Shown here in pieces: positions 53,713 through 57,971 of a stretch of DNA of 64,000 nt. This DNA is from Sphaerochaeta pleomorpha str. Grapes. GTDB lineage: Bacteria; Spirochaetota; Spirochaetia; Sphaerochaetales; Sphaerochaetaceae. The notes under the pieces were generated by a model. The model searched no databases. It had not been told where the DNA came from and saw nothing but the letters and a program-made list of their open reading frames with translations. Positions within the stretch are counted from its first letter, which is position 1; the number at the start of each line of letters is the position of its first letter. Location: positions 1,178,001 to 1,242,000 of the forward strand of contig NC_016633.1 in NCBI RefSeq assembly GCF_000236685.1, in the 5' to 3' direction. Both the position numbers and the translations under genes were made by a program.

Positions 53713-55148
53713 AGATATTTCTCAATATTCCGTTTATGTTCCTCATAGGTCTTTGCCAGGTGGATTGCCTTGTCCGTACCATGGAGATAGTAAAAATAGT
53801 CAGTCGACTGGGGAAAACAGGCCGCTTCGATTGCTTGCAGCGAAGGACTGCTGATACCACTGGGGGGCAAACCCGTTTTTCTTCTCGTGTTATAGGGAGT
53901 CTGCTGTTCCAGCGCTGAGGAAGGTATTGGTTTTTCCCAGTCATTCAACTCATAACGGGTCGTAGCATCGATGCCGAGAGGCTGGTCAGCATCCAACCTA
54001 TTATAGATAACCGAAGCGATCAGCGGCATTTCTCTCGGGTCTTGTGTCTCGGCTTGAATCATAGAGGCAACAATGAGTACTGCATCGACACCATAGAGGG
54101 ACACCCGTTCAGAATCCAAATAAGGCTTGAGCCCCTGCAACATTGCCTCAAACATGGAAAGAGCCAGATTTTTTGCAGCAGCATCCTGTTTTATGGAATA
54201 TGTTCCGCTAAGCAGCCATCCTTCACTGAAGGAGAGGCCATAAGCAACTTTCAAGTCTTCCGAAGCTTGGAAAAACTCTCCGCTTTTGGCATACCCACGG
54301 TTGGCCAGATAGATATCGATTGCCGCAATAGTATACCCAGGGGGTATCGTCACCGATACCATCAGGCTGTTGGAAGTGAGCTGGTTCGCAATCGACTCAT
54401 TATCCATATCGGCTTGCATCAGATAGGAACCGCTCCTGAGTACGGAGGCAAGGTTCTGGGAAACCAGAAAGTCAAGGAGTTTTTGACCATCAAGGGTTAC
54501 CCCTTGCTGTTCCAGCAAAGAACAAACCTGCCGTGCAGTCATCCCAGGGATAATCTGGATGGCTAGGGCTTCCCGTTGCACGCTCTGCATACTGGAGGGG
54601 ACATGATCCTCAGCAAGTAGCAAGGTTTCGGGTTTTCTGGTCTCAAAATATAAAACCACACAAATGATGCAAATAATTGCCGAGAGAATGAAGGCTATTG
54701 GTTTCAAGATGGTAAGTAAAGAGGGCCGATAGCCTTTCCTCTTGCCCAAGGGAGGTGGCTGAATTGTCTTACGGATAGCCTCTTTCTTGGGTTTTTCCGG
54801 CAAGCCTTGCACAACAGGATTGGCAATTCTTTTTACCGTCCGGACAATTGTTTGCTTCTTGACCGTCGGTTTTTTCGATACTTTGACAGTACTTGCCTTT
54901 GCTGTTTTTGTGACAGGTTTCTCTGAATCTATGGGTTTGGCTACCCCAGCAGGGACTTTTATAGTCACTTTCCTCGAAGAAACCTGAGGTTTCTTCCTTA
55001 CTGCAGGTTTTTCGACAGGAGCTTTAGCAGAGGCCTTGAGGATAATCTTCCCACTGGTTGGTCCCGTACTTTTTGGTTTCCGGTCTTTTTGCGTAGCAGA
55101 TAGCTTGGGATCCAAAAGCGATTGCTTGTCATCTTCTTTATTCGCCAT
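53709..55148 (-). CDS. mltG: Endolytic murein transglycosylase MltG
   Basis: 479 residues. A long cytoplasmic N-terminus of about 150 residues rich in Lys, Pro, Ala and Thr (KVTIKVPAGVAKPIDSEKPV...), one TM helix (PIAFILSAIICIICVVLYF), a LysM-like subdomain (IIPGMTARQVCSLLEQQGVT) and the YceG catalytic domain with Glu in SMIQAETQDPREMPLIASVI and YNRLDADQPLGIDATTRYEL. It cuts nascent glycan chains at the inner membrane. The unusually long charged N-terminus may be specific to this lineage. The gene start overlaps the coiled-coil gene by 11 nt. Confidence 0.92.
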   Translation of the reverse strand: MANKEDDKQSLLDPKLSATQKDRKPKSTGPTSGKIILKASAKAPVEKPAVRKKPQVSSRKVTIKVPAGVAKPIDSEKPVTKTAKASTVKVSKKPTVKKQTIVRTVKRIANPVVQGLPEKPKKEAIRKTIQPPPLGKRKGYRPSLLTILKPIAFILSAIICIICVVLYFETRKPETLLLAEDHVPSSMQSVQREALAIQIIPGMTARQVCSLLEQQGVTLDGQKLLDFLVSQNLASVLRSGSYLMQADMDNESIANQLTSNSLMVSVTIPPGYTIAAIDIYLANRGYAKSGEFFQASEDLKVAYGLSFSEGWLLSGTYSIKQDAAAKNLALSMFEAMLQGLKPYLDSERVSLYGVDAVLIVASMIQAETQDPREMPLIASVIYNRLDADQPLGIDATTRYELNDWEKPIPSSALEQQTPYNTRRKTGLPPSGISSPSLQAIEAACFPQSTDYFYYLHGTDKAIHLAKTYEEHKRNIEKYL

Positions 55149-56265
55149 GGTAGTCCAAAGCCTTCTGGGGCATCATTGAGGTGATTTTCTGGCGTTTAGC
55201 CTCAATGTTTTGCTGAACCTGGCTGATTTGCCGGTTCGCAGCATCAATCTGGGCATTGAGGTGTGCAACCTTTTGGTTGTCGAGCTCAATCTGTGCCTGG
55301 AGTTCCTCTACTTTCATCATGTTCTGCAACTGAAGAATGTCCTTTTCAAGTTGGGCAATCCTCCTCAGATGCAGCGAGATCTGATCTATCAGGGAAATTG
55401 CCTTCTGGCCAACTGTCCAACTGGAGATATCGGAAGGTAGGGTTTCGTATAAGGCCCGTCCAAACACAGAGGCAACTTTGTCTCGCTCTTTCCCATAGGC
55501 GATACATTGATTTTTACTTTGTTCAAGTTGCCGGTGGGGACTGTCAACCTCTTGGTCCTTCATTTTCGCGACCGCATTCCGATGAATTGACAATTCCTCC
55601 ATCAAATCCTGCTGCCGTTTCTGGAACACCGCAATCTCCTGGACAAGGGATTTAGTCCCCAATCCAGGTATATCGGCCTCACAACCAACTTCCACCAAGG
55701 CGGCCCCTGCCTTGGCAAACTGGGGAAGCACTTTCTTTCTCTGGCTCTCAAGCAACGAGGAAAGAACCTTTGCCTTCAATTTTGCTTTGCTACGGACAAA
55801 GGGAGATGTATCCGTTATACCTTTGCCTGCTTCGAAAAAAGCTTTTTCCAAGCCCTTGGTCCTTTGTGAATGGCCTTCAAAAAACGGGGAACAAATCTCT
55901 AGCAGGTAATCGGCCAACGTCTCCGCCCCATAGGCTTCATAGGCAATAGCCCCAAGTCGGGAAAACAGCTTCTCAGCGGGAATATTCAAGGATTTTATAT
56001 CATTTTCAATTTGTTTTATTTTCCGGGAACGGTCTTCCAGCTGGCTTACGAACTGGTGGAGCCTTTCATAGGCTTTTTCTGCCTCCAGGGAACGTACTTC
56101 CAGTTTTTGGAATGCAAGGAATTCGTCATGGCAATATCCAAGAGGAGTAACCTGTTCAATAGTTGCGATTGTTTTTCCAAGGTCGGCATACAACACGAAC
56201 AAATCGTTGCGGTGTCCTTCGATTTCTTTTTGTTTTCCGAGGATGTCAGCCTGTAAATTTCCCAT
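55138..56265 (-). CDS. Coiled-coil protein of unknown function
   Basis: 375 residues, cytoplasmic, without signal or TM. Heptad-rich helices at both ends (KQKEIEGHRNDLFVLYADLG; QLEKDILQLQNMMKVEELQA and AQIDAANRQISQVQQNIEAK) flank a central helical domain (EKLFSRLGAIAYEAYGAETL). It is co-transcribed with mltG (11-nt overlap), which suggests a link with envelope synthesis or division; no enzyme motif seen. Family not recognised. Confidence 0.72.
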   Translation of the reverse strand: MGNLQADILGKQKEIEGHRNDLFVLYADLGKTIATIEQVTPLGYCHDEFLAFQKLEVRSLEAEKAYERLHQFVSQLEDRSRKIKQIENDIKSLNIPAEKLFSRLGAIAYEAYGAETLADYLLEICSPFFEGHSQRTKGLEKAFFEAGKGITDTSPFVRSKAKLKAKVLSSLLESQRKKVLPQFAKAGAALVEVGCEADIPGLGTKSLVQEIAVFQKRQQDLMEELSIHRNAVAKMKDQEVDSPHRQLEQSKNQCIAYGKERDKVASVFGRALYETLPSDISSWTVGQKAISLIDQISLHLRRIAQLEKDILQLQNMMKVEELQAQIELDNQKVAHLNAQIDAANRQISQVQQNIEAKRQKITSMMPQKALDYHGE

Positions 56266-56353: not shown

Positions 56354-56383
56354 TTGACAAAGAGATGACCTGTTGGGTATTCT
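56354..56383 (+). promoter_or_regulatory. Promoter of the structured leader and RNA-binding protein gene
   Basis: TTGACA (56354-56359), an 18-nt spacer, TATTCT (56378-56383). Transcription would begin near 56390, about 358 nt before the next start codon. Confidence 0.62.
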
Positions 56384-56389
56384 GAATCC

Positions 56390-56732
56390 AAACTGCTCAG
56401 GGATGGGAAGTCTTTATGTAAAAAATAAGAAAAGCAACCTACCCTGAATAGACTTGGAAGGATTTCCTGTATGCATTGCCAGAATGCCTCGCCTTCCATG
56501 CAAGGTGTGACCGGATGAAGACCCGATTGTGAGAAGATGGGCTTCAGACGGTATCCACTTGATTGCCCAAGGTTCTATTCCTTGCTACGGGCAATAAGGC
56601 CGGCGCGACGTCGTCTGTAGGTATGTATTCCCGCGGCCGGGAGTATATCCAGGACATTCCGTCTGGCTAGAAAGGAAACAAAATTAGCCCGCACCTACCC
56701 AACTGGCATGTGCAGAGCGGGAAATCGATTAT
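56390..56732 (+). ncRNA. Long structured leader or small RNA
   Basis: About 340 nt without a gene but full of helices: TCAGGG (56397) with CCCTGA (56442), interleaved with AAGTCT (56408) and AGACTT (56450); GCATT/AATGC (56473/56483); GAAGACCC/GGGCTTC (56517/56539); CAGACG/CGTCTG (56545/56612) enclosing ATTGCCC/GGGCAAT (56562/56589); TATTCCCG/CGGGAGTA (56626/56638); CCAGGAC/GTCTGG (56649-56666); CCCGC/GCGGG (56688/56717). No T-rich terminator before the next gene, so it is probably the 5' leader of the RNA-binding protein mRNA. It does not match RNase P, SRP, tmRNA or a riboswitch I know. Confidence 0.5.
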
Positions 56733-56747
56733 CAAGGAGACCTGTTC

Positions 56748-57320
56748 ATGGAAAATGACAACAAGAGCACCCCTAATGAAGAAGACATTCTCGTAGGGAA
56801 AATTCAGGTGCTCGCTGGAAAAACAAAGGCCGACCCGAATCCTGACGAACTGGAACAGTTGAAAAAACTGATCAAGAAGAATGTTCCCTTCACGCTTCGC
56901 AGTTATTTCATGGCCTATCTGCTTCGAGAGATGCTTGGGGCAAATACTCCAAAAAGCAAAACCCCGGCTCCAAAGCGCGCACCACAGGCAAAAAAAGCCA
57001 CAAAACCCACCCCTGCTGCACCTAAGGCAAAAGAAGAAGCCGGTGCTGCAAAACAGACTACCGAACGGGCTCTTCCCGAAGGGGCTAGAACCCTCTACCT
57101 CAACATTGGCAAAATGAAAAGATTGTATGCAAAGGAACTTTCCCAATTGCTTCAGACTGAATTGGGTGTTACCAGAGAGGAAATCTTCAGTATTCGCATC
57201 CATGACAAGTATTCGTTCATTTCGATGAGCGAAGAAAATTGCGAAAAAGCAATTGCTACCTTGAACGGTATGGACATCAAAGGCCGTACTGCAGCTGTAA
57301 GCTATTCAAACAAGGAGTAA
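56748..57320 (+). CDS. DbpA-type RNA-binding domain protein
   Basis: 190 residues. N-terminal helical acidic part, a central low-complexity linker rich in Lys, Ala and Pro (KTPAPKRAPQAKKATKPTPA), and a C-terminal DbpA-like RNA-binding domain (ARTLYLNIGKMKRLYAKELS; EEIFSIRIHDKYSFISMSEE). It lacks helicase motifs, so it is a stand-alone RNA-binding factor related to the tail of the helicase at the window start. AAGGAG lies 8 nt before ATG. The long folded leader suggests it may control its own expression. Downstream gene follows after 3 nt. Confidence 0.82.
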   Translation: MENDNKSTPNEEDILVGKIQVLAGKTKADPNPDELEQLKKLIKKNVPFTLRSYFMAYLLREMLGANTPKSKTPAPKRAPQAKKATKPTPAAPKAKEEAGAAKQTTERALPEGARTLYLNIGKMKRLYAKELSQLLQTELGVTREEIFSIRIHDKYSFISMSEENCEKAIATLNGMDIKGRTAAVSYSNKE

Positions 57321-57323
57321 AGG

Positions 57324-57971
57324 ATGTTCGTAGAGTGTATCGTTGTTGGGCCGTACCAGACTAATTGTTACATTATGGGCAATGAGGAAACTTCCAGTGC
57401 ATGGATTATCGATCCAGGCAATGAAGGCGATACCATCATCCGCCATATTTTGGCCCGCAACGTTACACCTGTAGCTGCCTTGCTTACCCATTGTCACTGG
57501 GACCATATTACTGCACTGGGTACCCTCAAAGAGAAATGGCCTCTTTTGGAAATTCTTGTTTCCAAAGAGGACTCTCAGTTCCTGGGCAAGGATGCTTACC
57601 GGCTGCTCTGCGAAACCTGCTTTGATAAGACATTCCTCCAGCAATACAAAGAGGAATTACTGCAATTGCCGTCATCCACTGGATTCCTTACCGATGGCCA
57701 GTTCCTTCAGGATTCACACCTCAAGGTCATACAGACCCCGGGACATACTCCTGGAGGTATTTGCCTCTATCACGAAGAAGGTCAGTTCCTGTTTTCCGGT
57801 GACACCCTGTTTGCCGGAAGCATCGGCCGCACTGACCTCTTTGGAGGATCCTACCCAAAAATTGTTGAAAGTTGCAATCGACTGCTTACACTTCCCTCTG
57901 AGGTCCAGGTACTGCCTGGGCATGGCCCCATGACTACTATTGGAGCAGAACGCACAAATCCCTATCTTTAA
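57324..57971 (+). CDS. MBL-fold metallo-hydrolase (glyoxalase II-like)
   Basis: 215 residues. Metal ligands visible: THCHWDHITALG (HxHxDH), TPGHTPGGICLY, FSGDTLFAGSIGRTDL (bridging Asp) and LPGHGPMTTIG (last His), with IIDPGNEGD near the N-terminus. Layout is that of small hydroxyacylglutathione hydrolase-like YcbL proteins. Starts 3 nt after the RNA-binding gene; same operon. Substrate unproven. Confidence 0.9.
   Translation: MFVECIVVGPYQTNCYIMGNEETSSAWIIDPGNEGDTIIRHILARNVTPVAALLTHCHWDHITALGTLKEKWPLLEILVSKEDSQFLGKDAYRLLCETCFDKTFLQQYKEELLQLPSSTGFLTDGQFLQDSHLKVIQTPGHTPGGICLYHEEGQFLFSGDTLFAGSIGRTDLFGGSYPKIVESCNRLLTLPSEVQVLPGHGPMTTIGAERTNPYL

Follow-up and report, generated by a model that had tools for sequence, protein, structure and literature searches.

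The locus and its leader

The question raised by this locus of Sphaerochaeta pleomorpha str. Grapes is why a gene for a small RNA-binding protein should be preceded by a long stretch of foldable RNA. The gene lies on the plus strand at 56748-57320 (coordinates are positions in the window, i.e., the whole 64,000-nt stretch analysed, from a single-contig genome of 3.59 Mb) and encodes a protein of 190 aa featuring a C-terminal DbpA domain (PF03880, E 5e-17, residues 115-184) without a helicase core. A gene of the metallo-beta-lactamase fold (57324-57971) begins 3 bases past its stop codon, and the divergent neighbour on the 5' side is a 375-aa frame on the minus strand (55138-56265) with a weak coiled-coil match.

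A promoter had been proposed at the head of the leader, and a sigma-70-type site was indeed found on the plus strand at 56354-56383, consisting of TTGACA (56354-56359), an 18-nt spacer and TATTCT (56378-56383), with 10/12 matches. Taken alone, without relatives, this match is weak and no better than chance in 1.8 kb, the scan having returned three promoter-like sites with 1.7 expected by chance. It gains weight because a similar pair, TTGACA...TATYCT-like in a regular-expression search, recurs 5' of the homologous gene in 35 of 38 related loci, those missed being L023, L028 and L032.

Transcription from this promoter would start near 56390 and produce a 5' leader of ~358 nt (56390-56747, plus strand), the core of which is matched in 18 genomes of the genus. 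The predicted fold of the window leader has an energy of -126.6 kcal/mol (z = -3.55), which none of 100 shuffles equalled, confirming the large folded leader of the original prediction with a start deduced from the promoter. No terminator-like site is listed on the plus strand between 55800 and 57600, so that, as had been supposed, none separates the leader from the DbpA-domain gene; the same scan gives no support for a transcription attenuator, as it lists no intrinsic terminator in the leader on that strand.

Helices and conserved elements

The window leader is predicted to fold into a chain of hairpins termed P1 to P6. Its structure was compared among 19 non-redundant leaders of the genus, each taken from just past the -10 box up to the ATG and ranging from 226 to 367 nt. 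Excluded from this set were L024/L077, which belong to the same genus and have a promoter-to-ATG distance of 171 nt without the landmarks, and duplicates from identical or near-identical genomes; alignment A1 excludes L068. For the helix counts, segments were anchored by hand on the landmarks, and since such anchoring could favour the structure, automatic alignments were added. Paired cells were judged against a tree-aware null, in which the inferred substitutions of every branch were re-dealt among the columns by rate, 400 times.

P1 (56393-56402 with 56442-56451) contains TCAGGG (56397-56402) and CCCTGA (56442-56447) and has 140/188 cells paired, with 0/400 null simulations as high. The lower helix of P2 (56456-56461 with 56492-56497) reaches 107/117 cells and the top hairpin of P2 (56469-56491), whose loop 1 is TGCCAG (56477-56482), 118/152, again with 0/400 null simulations as high in either case. 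P3 (56505-56558) combines an outer GTG/CAC helix (56505-56507 with 56556-56558; 48/48 cells) with an inner ACCG/CGGT helix (56510-56513 with 56549-56552; 57/64 cells) around a conserved internal loop, and is nearly invariant in sequence in 16 leaders; the null was as high in 218/400 and 230/400 simulations, respectively. Within P3, 56514-56548 is a 35-nt insertion that is absent in most relatives, shorter in L016 and of full length in the window leader alone. This insertion can lengthen P3 by a GAAGACCC/GGGCTTC-like helix.

The P4 hairpin (56563-56594) keeps 141/160 cells paired (0/400 null), and CG, TA and GC all occur at several of its pairs. Its loop TTCCTTG was considered as an anti-Shine-Dalgarno element and rejected, since by eye the window's subtype has it in all five leaders, four others show a weaker form and seven lack it. 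P5 (56622-56649) carries the invariant loop CGGC (56634-56637) on a G-C closing pair and has 89/108 cells paired in nine leaders (0/400 null). It is followed by the conserved unpaired AGGAAACA (56673-56680), in which AGGAAAC is invariant in the nine full-type leaders. P6 (56688-56721; 56688-56692 with 56717-56721) bears loop 2, CTGGCA (56703-56708); 78/95 cells of its outer part (5/400 null) and 57/82 of its inner part (12/400 null) are paired.

P6 closes the structured part at 56721, leaving 12 nt to the Shine-Dalgarno AAGGAG (56734-56739), so that the fold adjoins the translation start. The stretch from AAGGAG to the start codon (56734-56750) includes a spacer ending in TGTTC. TG(C/T)TC stands directly before the ATG in 19/19 leaders, with the exact TGTTC in one and TGCTC in the relatives. 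GAG 56737-56739 can pair with TTC 56745-56747, and a GAG/CUC pairing appears in the RNAalifold output as a three-pair hairpin. The claim of at least seven helices therefore holds, the count being P1, P2 lower, P2 top, P3 inner and outer, P4, P5, P6 and this small Shine-Dalgarno hairpin.

Comparative support for the structure

Pairing in P1, P2 lower, P2 top, P4 and P5 is kept through sequence change beyond the null, a conclusion supported less strongly for P6, while P3 and the loop-loop pairing described below are beyond the reach of the re-dealing null because they are too invariant. Shifting one partner by 1-4 columns lowered the pairing in the tested helices, with the exception of P3 outer (1.00 at one slide).

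The automatic alignments pointed in the same direction. With MAFFT alone, the window leader and its four nearest relatives showed 97.1% of 207 cells pairing, equalled by 0/500 shuffles, and partner slides of one to three columns gave at most 49.3%; seven pairs changed on both sides, most of them from row L016. RNAalifold on nine leaders kept 50 pairs, 17 with double change. The compensatory changes in related genomes whose absence had been named beforehand as refuting the prediction were thus found by the tree-aware null, the MAFFT subtype alignment and RNAalifold alike. An all-pairs covariation analysis of the 19 leaders with our own R-scape-style script gave a best pair of E 0.4, outside any helix. 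The leader set is too small and clumped, with few independent lineages, for single pairs, and the structural claim consequently rests on the helix-level tests.

Plus-strand fold z-scores ranged from -3.61 (window) to +0.81 (L015), and the single-sequence folds of the L059, L020, L015 and L017 leaders were no better than shuffles. The z-score was lower on the plus strand in 11/13 leaders (60 shuffles each). Over all helices, 84 G-U cells versus 63 A-C cells slightly favour the plus strand, which P1, P3 and P6 individually do not. Altogether, these sequence comparisons argue for a conserved structured leader that is real.

A candidate long-range loop-loop pairing

Two interleaved helices, TCAGGG/CCCTGA and AAGTCT/AGACTT, had been proposed to form a pseudoknot or alternative structures. 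The former, as part of P1, is supported by the relatives, whereas the latter (56408-56413 with 56450-56455) is present in the window and not conserved in the alignment of relatives. A likelier non-nested candidate is the kissing pairing of TGCCAG (56477-56482) with CTGGCA (56703-56708), which would connect two 6-nt hairpin loops, those of P2 and P6, ~220 nt apart, the second lying just 5' of the Shine-Dalgarno.

RNAalifold on the nine leaders itself picked this long-range pairing. It is paired in 110/114 cells and nearly invariant, 47/400 null simulations being as high. The variants comprise a G-U pair in L012, one pair that is G-C in place of A-U in L015 and a T-T mismatch in L010 and L011, and by eye the complementarity reaches about nine or ten pairs in L015 and L021. 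Shuffling of the two 22-nt loop segments, which had been preselected as complementary, gave p <=0.016 in 15/19 leaders; the weaker rows were the window (p 0.129) and L010, L011 and L016 (0.06-0.07). Given this preselection, the outcome lends support and no more.

Distribution and comparison with known RNA classes

The covariance model R1, spanning P2 top to P4, was searched against the family with the stricter filters of Infernal. One match each was obtained in 18 of 118 family genomes, all of the window's genus and all 131-150 nt 5' of the DbpA-domain gene, with no second copies and no match in the 92 family genomes outside the genus. As most of the 18 matched genomes supplied the model, these matches alone prove little, and the weight lies on the absence of further copies and of matches outside the genus. 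Eight genomes of the genus have no R1 match: in G008, G011, G013 and G022 the gene was not found either, G004, G007 and G015 are of the short-leader type, and the last is G023. Among the 19 leaders, 16 show the landmarks as far as P4, and a CGGC-type P5 is present in nine of the 16; those of L015, L017 and L021 are without P3, P4 and P5. A motif search with the pattern TGTGACCN{0,30}GGTATCC was abandoned as too short to be specific, since it matched 72 of 392 phylum genomes, mostly at scattered places.

Searched against Rfam release 15, neither the window leader nor that of L059 gave a family match up to E 5. Searches of 15 related loci returned two tRNAs as the only matches at gathering scores, and the Rfam hits of the L041 leader lie far below such scores. 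The leader adds a well-supported structured RNA that is absent from Rfam 15. RNase P RNA and 6S RNA can be dismissed, as the genome's RNase P RNA is encoded elsewhere (C1:487140-487478) and its only 6S-like match is at C1:3352596-3352783. This 6S-like match (L048) scores 45.8 bits with a cut-off of 46.4 and is perhaps a divergent spirochaete 6S RNA. A leader peptide was also rejected: the frame from the 5' ATG varies from 5 to 118 codons among the 19 leaders with no common peptide, and three rows have no ATG. The words GTGCCAGC and CCGCGG resemble 16S rRNA, which we take to be the chance expectation for such short words.

In the available text of the records searched, no transcript study of Sphaerochaeta was found, and the matches for Sphaerochaeta together with noncoding RNA concern gut or rumen microbiota. 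By term search, the main texts of the 26-genome and 50-genome structured-RNA surveys mention neither Sphaerochaeta nor dbpA.

Probable control in cis and proposed autoregulation

Regulation in cis by the leader appears likely from the arrangement of the sequence. Since the folded part stops 12 nt short of the Shine-Dalgarno and the sequence between that site and the start codon is itself conserved, the leader would act on the translation start. We propose that the P2 and P6 loops kiss and thereby close a P3-P4-P5 domain just 5' of the Shine-Dalgarno, and that the encoded protein may bind either the folded leader or UGYUC before the start codon and repress its own synthesis, this binding and self-repression being the least certain. 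Taken as a whole, the reading of a helicase-less DbpA-domain mRNA whose leader acts in cis on translation and is bound by its own product is given a probability of about 0.48. Autoregulation by the encoded protein would be the likeliest mechanism.

Several ribosomal proteins are known to repress their own synthesis by binding their own mRNA leader, and the arrangement found here, a conserved structure in cis 5' of the gene for an RNA-binding protein, is the one expected of autoregulation of that type. The fold is presumably larger than the rpsO leader. According to PMC10931766, both bL20 and uS15 rely on a pseudoknot within the mRNA that encodes them, and in the bL20 operator of the E. coli infC-rpmI-rplT mRNA distant segments form a long-range pseudoknot that controls translation. 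For uS15 (rpsO), different bacteria use unrelated leader structures for one and the same protein, and the mycobacterial uS15 pseudoknot sits 5' of the initiation site, as described in PMC10931766 and PMC5100602. The locus resembles the bL20 operator in a candidate long-range pairing within the mRNA of an RNA-binding protein, although here the contact would join two hairpin loops, and no similarity of the leader to the protein's rRNA target was found. As in the mycobacterial leader, the pseudoknot candidate is located 5' of the initiation site; S15 is a ribosomal protein, in contrast to the DbpA-domain protein here. Of the known systems, bL20 and uS15 offer the nearest working models for the Sphaerochaeta leader.

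The DEAD-box proteins DbpA, YxiN and Hera share the domain family PF03880, which in them is attached to a DEAD-box core that is missing here. PMC3695512 gives UGUUC, in a loop of 23S hairpin 92, as the sequence read by YxiN, and GGG-pyrimidine as that read by Hera. Neither UGUUC nor GGG-pyrimidine keeps a fixed position in the Sphaerochaeta leaders; a copied rRNA target is not supported because UGUUC has no common place inside them. The spacer UGYUC before the AUG is a candidate protein site and no more. If autoregulation is true, a helicase-less RNA-binding domain would be regulated in the manner of a ribosomal protein, and its leader could be used to get at the protein's target.

Alternative inputs and passive roles

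A cis-acting leader that responds to another input, such as a ribosome-assembly factor, another RNA-binding protein, an sRNA or a small molecule, would explain the cis linkage and the structure equally well, and the highly conserved unpaired or loop nucleotides of P3 and AGGAAACA are what a binding pocket would hold. We consider this unlikely, as the leader precedes a single gene, leaving no regulon that points to a metabolite, and matches no Rfam riboswitch. A metabolite riboswitch in particular was rejected, since each of the 18 genomes has the element once, in every case in front of the DbpA-domain gene and not before several pathway genes.

More unlikely still is a passive structure that stabilises the mRNA or fixes the rate of translation without sensing anything. 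The loss or remodelling of the leader between genera while the gene stays suggests that no precise input is indispensable, whereas compensatory change in most helices together with the invariant loops CGGC, TGCCAG and CTGGCA demands more than bulk structure.

Temperature control, as in a cold-shock leader or an RNA thermometer, had been put forward alongside autoregulation. Cold adaptation is known to involve DbpA-type proteins as well as structured leaders, and the weak GAG/CUC hairpin overlaps the Shine-Dalgarno. The predicted opening of the Shine-Dalgarno in the window leader is nevertheless 0.28 at 10 °C and 0.37 at 50 °C, and the proposal found no support among 13 leaders, whose accessibility followed no consistent trend from 10 to 50 °C in a weak test with a nested model that ignores pseudoknots. 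We regard this explanation as improbable. The size and fold would also allow the leader to yield a small RNA of its own, with read-through from its promoter into the gene; this is highly improbable in view of the terminator scan and the conservation of the Shine-Dalgarno and P6 together with the gene in 19 leaders.

Helicase fusions and different leaders in other genera

L023, L028, L080 and L081 (L074 being the same genome as L023) are without such a leader, and the gene is open in frame for 340-366 codons upstream. The in-frame fused genes are located at L023:1966-3609, L028:1903-3615 and L081:481-2091. Their upstream part has a weak DEAD-box likeness in L081 (CshA E 1.6e-6, DEAD 0.054) and L028 (1.9e-5 and 0.12), with no Pfam helicase hit in L023. 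By eye, AAGGAG...GCTCATG is retained inside the fused frames, which suggests an internal start and hence two products from one gene. The window itself contains a second DbpA RNA-binding domain (479-682) within a 646-aa open frame, probably a full helicase, where R1 finds no leader.

In a midpoint-rooted tree of 51 proteins, the fused loci fall outside the Sphaerochaeta group as two lines. It is possible from this topology that the helicase part was lost on the way to Sphaerochaeta, with separate fusions as the alternative. For L045 (201 open codons), the label in the tree probably reflects a threshold that gave a false positive. A wider and rather doubtful extension of the autoregulatory reading would make the leader a new RNA class, ~300-360 nt long and closed by a kissing loop over ~220 nt, which acts as operator for a stand-alone DbpA-type domain. 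It would have arisen where related genera keep an in-frame degenerate helicase core, so that enzyme loss and operator gain share one site and the internal start (AAGGAG...TGCTCATG) is preserved.

With the filters off, R1 was also run on nine loci, the leader of L027 giving the best match (E 0.11), followed by L041 (0.72) and L076 (6.7), with none for the leaders of L079, L015, L017, L021, L024 and L025. Hits in leaders of other genera are best treated as leads and not as homologues. Ten Ornithospirochaeta-like loci have their own leader of ~105 nt before the same gene (L041:2883-2988, similar in L034, L038-L040 and L042-L046), which folds into three small hairpins and has AGTCCG...CGGAAAC as a conserved motif. 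Such strong differences between genera offer a test case for how fast operators of this kind are rebuilt. In another genus, the AT-rich leaders of L076 and L079 keep, by eye, GTGTGACCGA..GGTATCC and a CCTTTTCCTAG-like stretch, which resemble P3 and the P4 loop.
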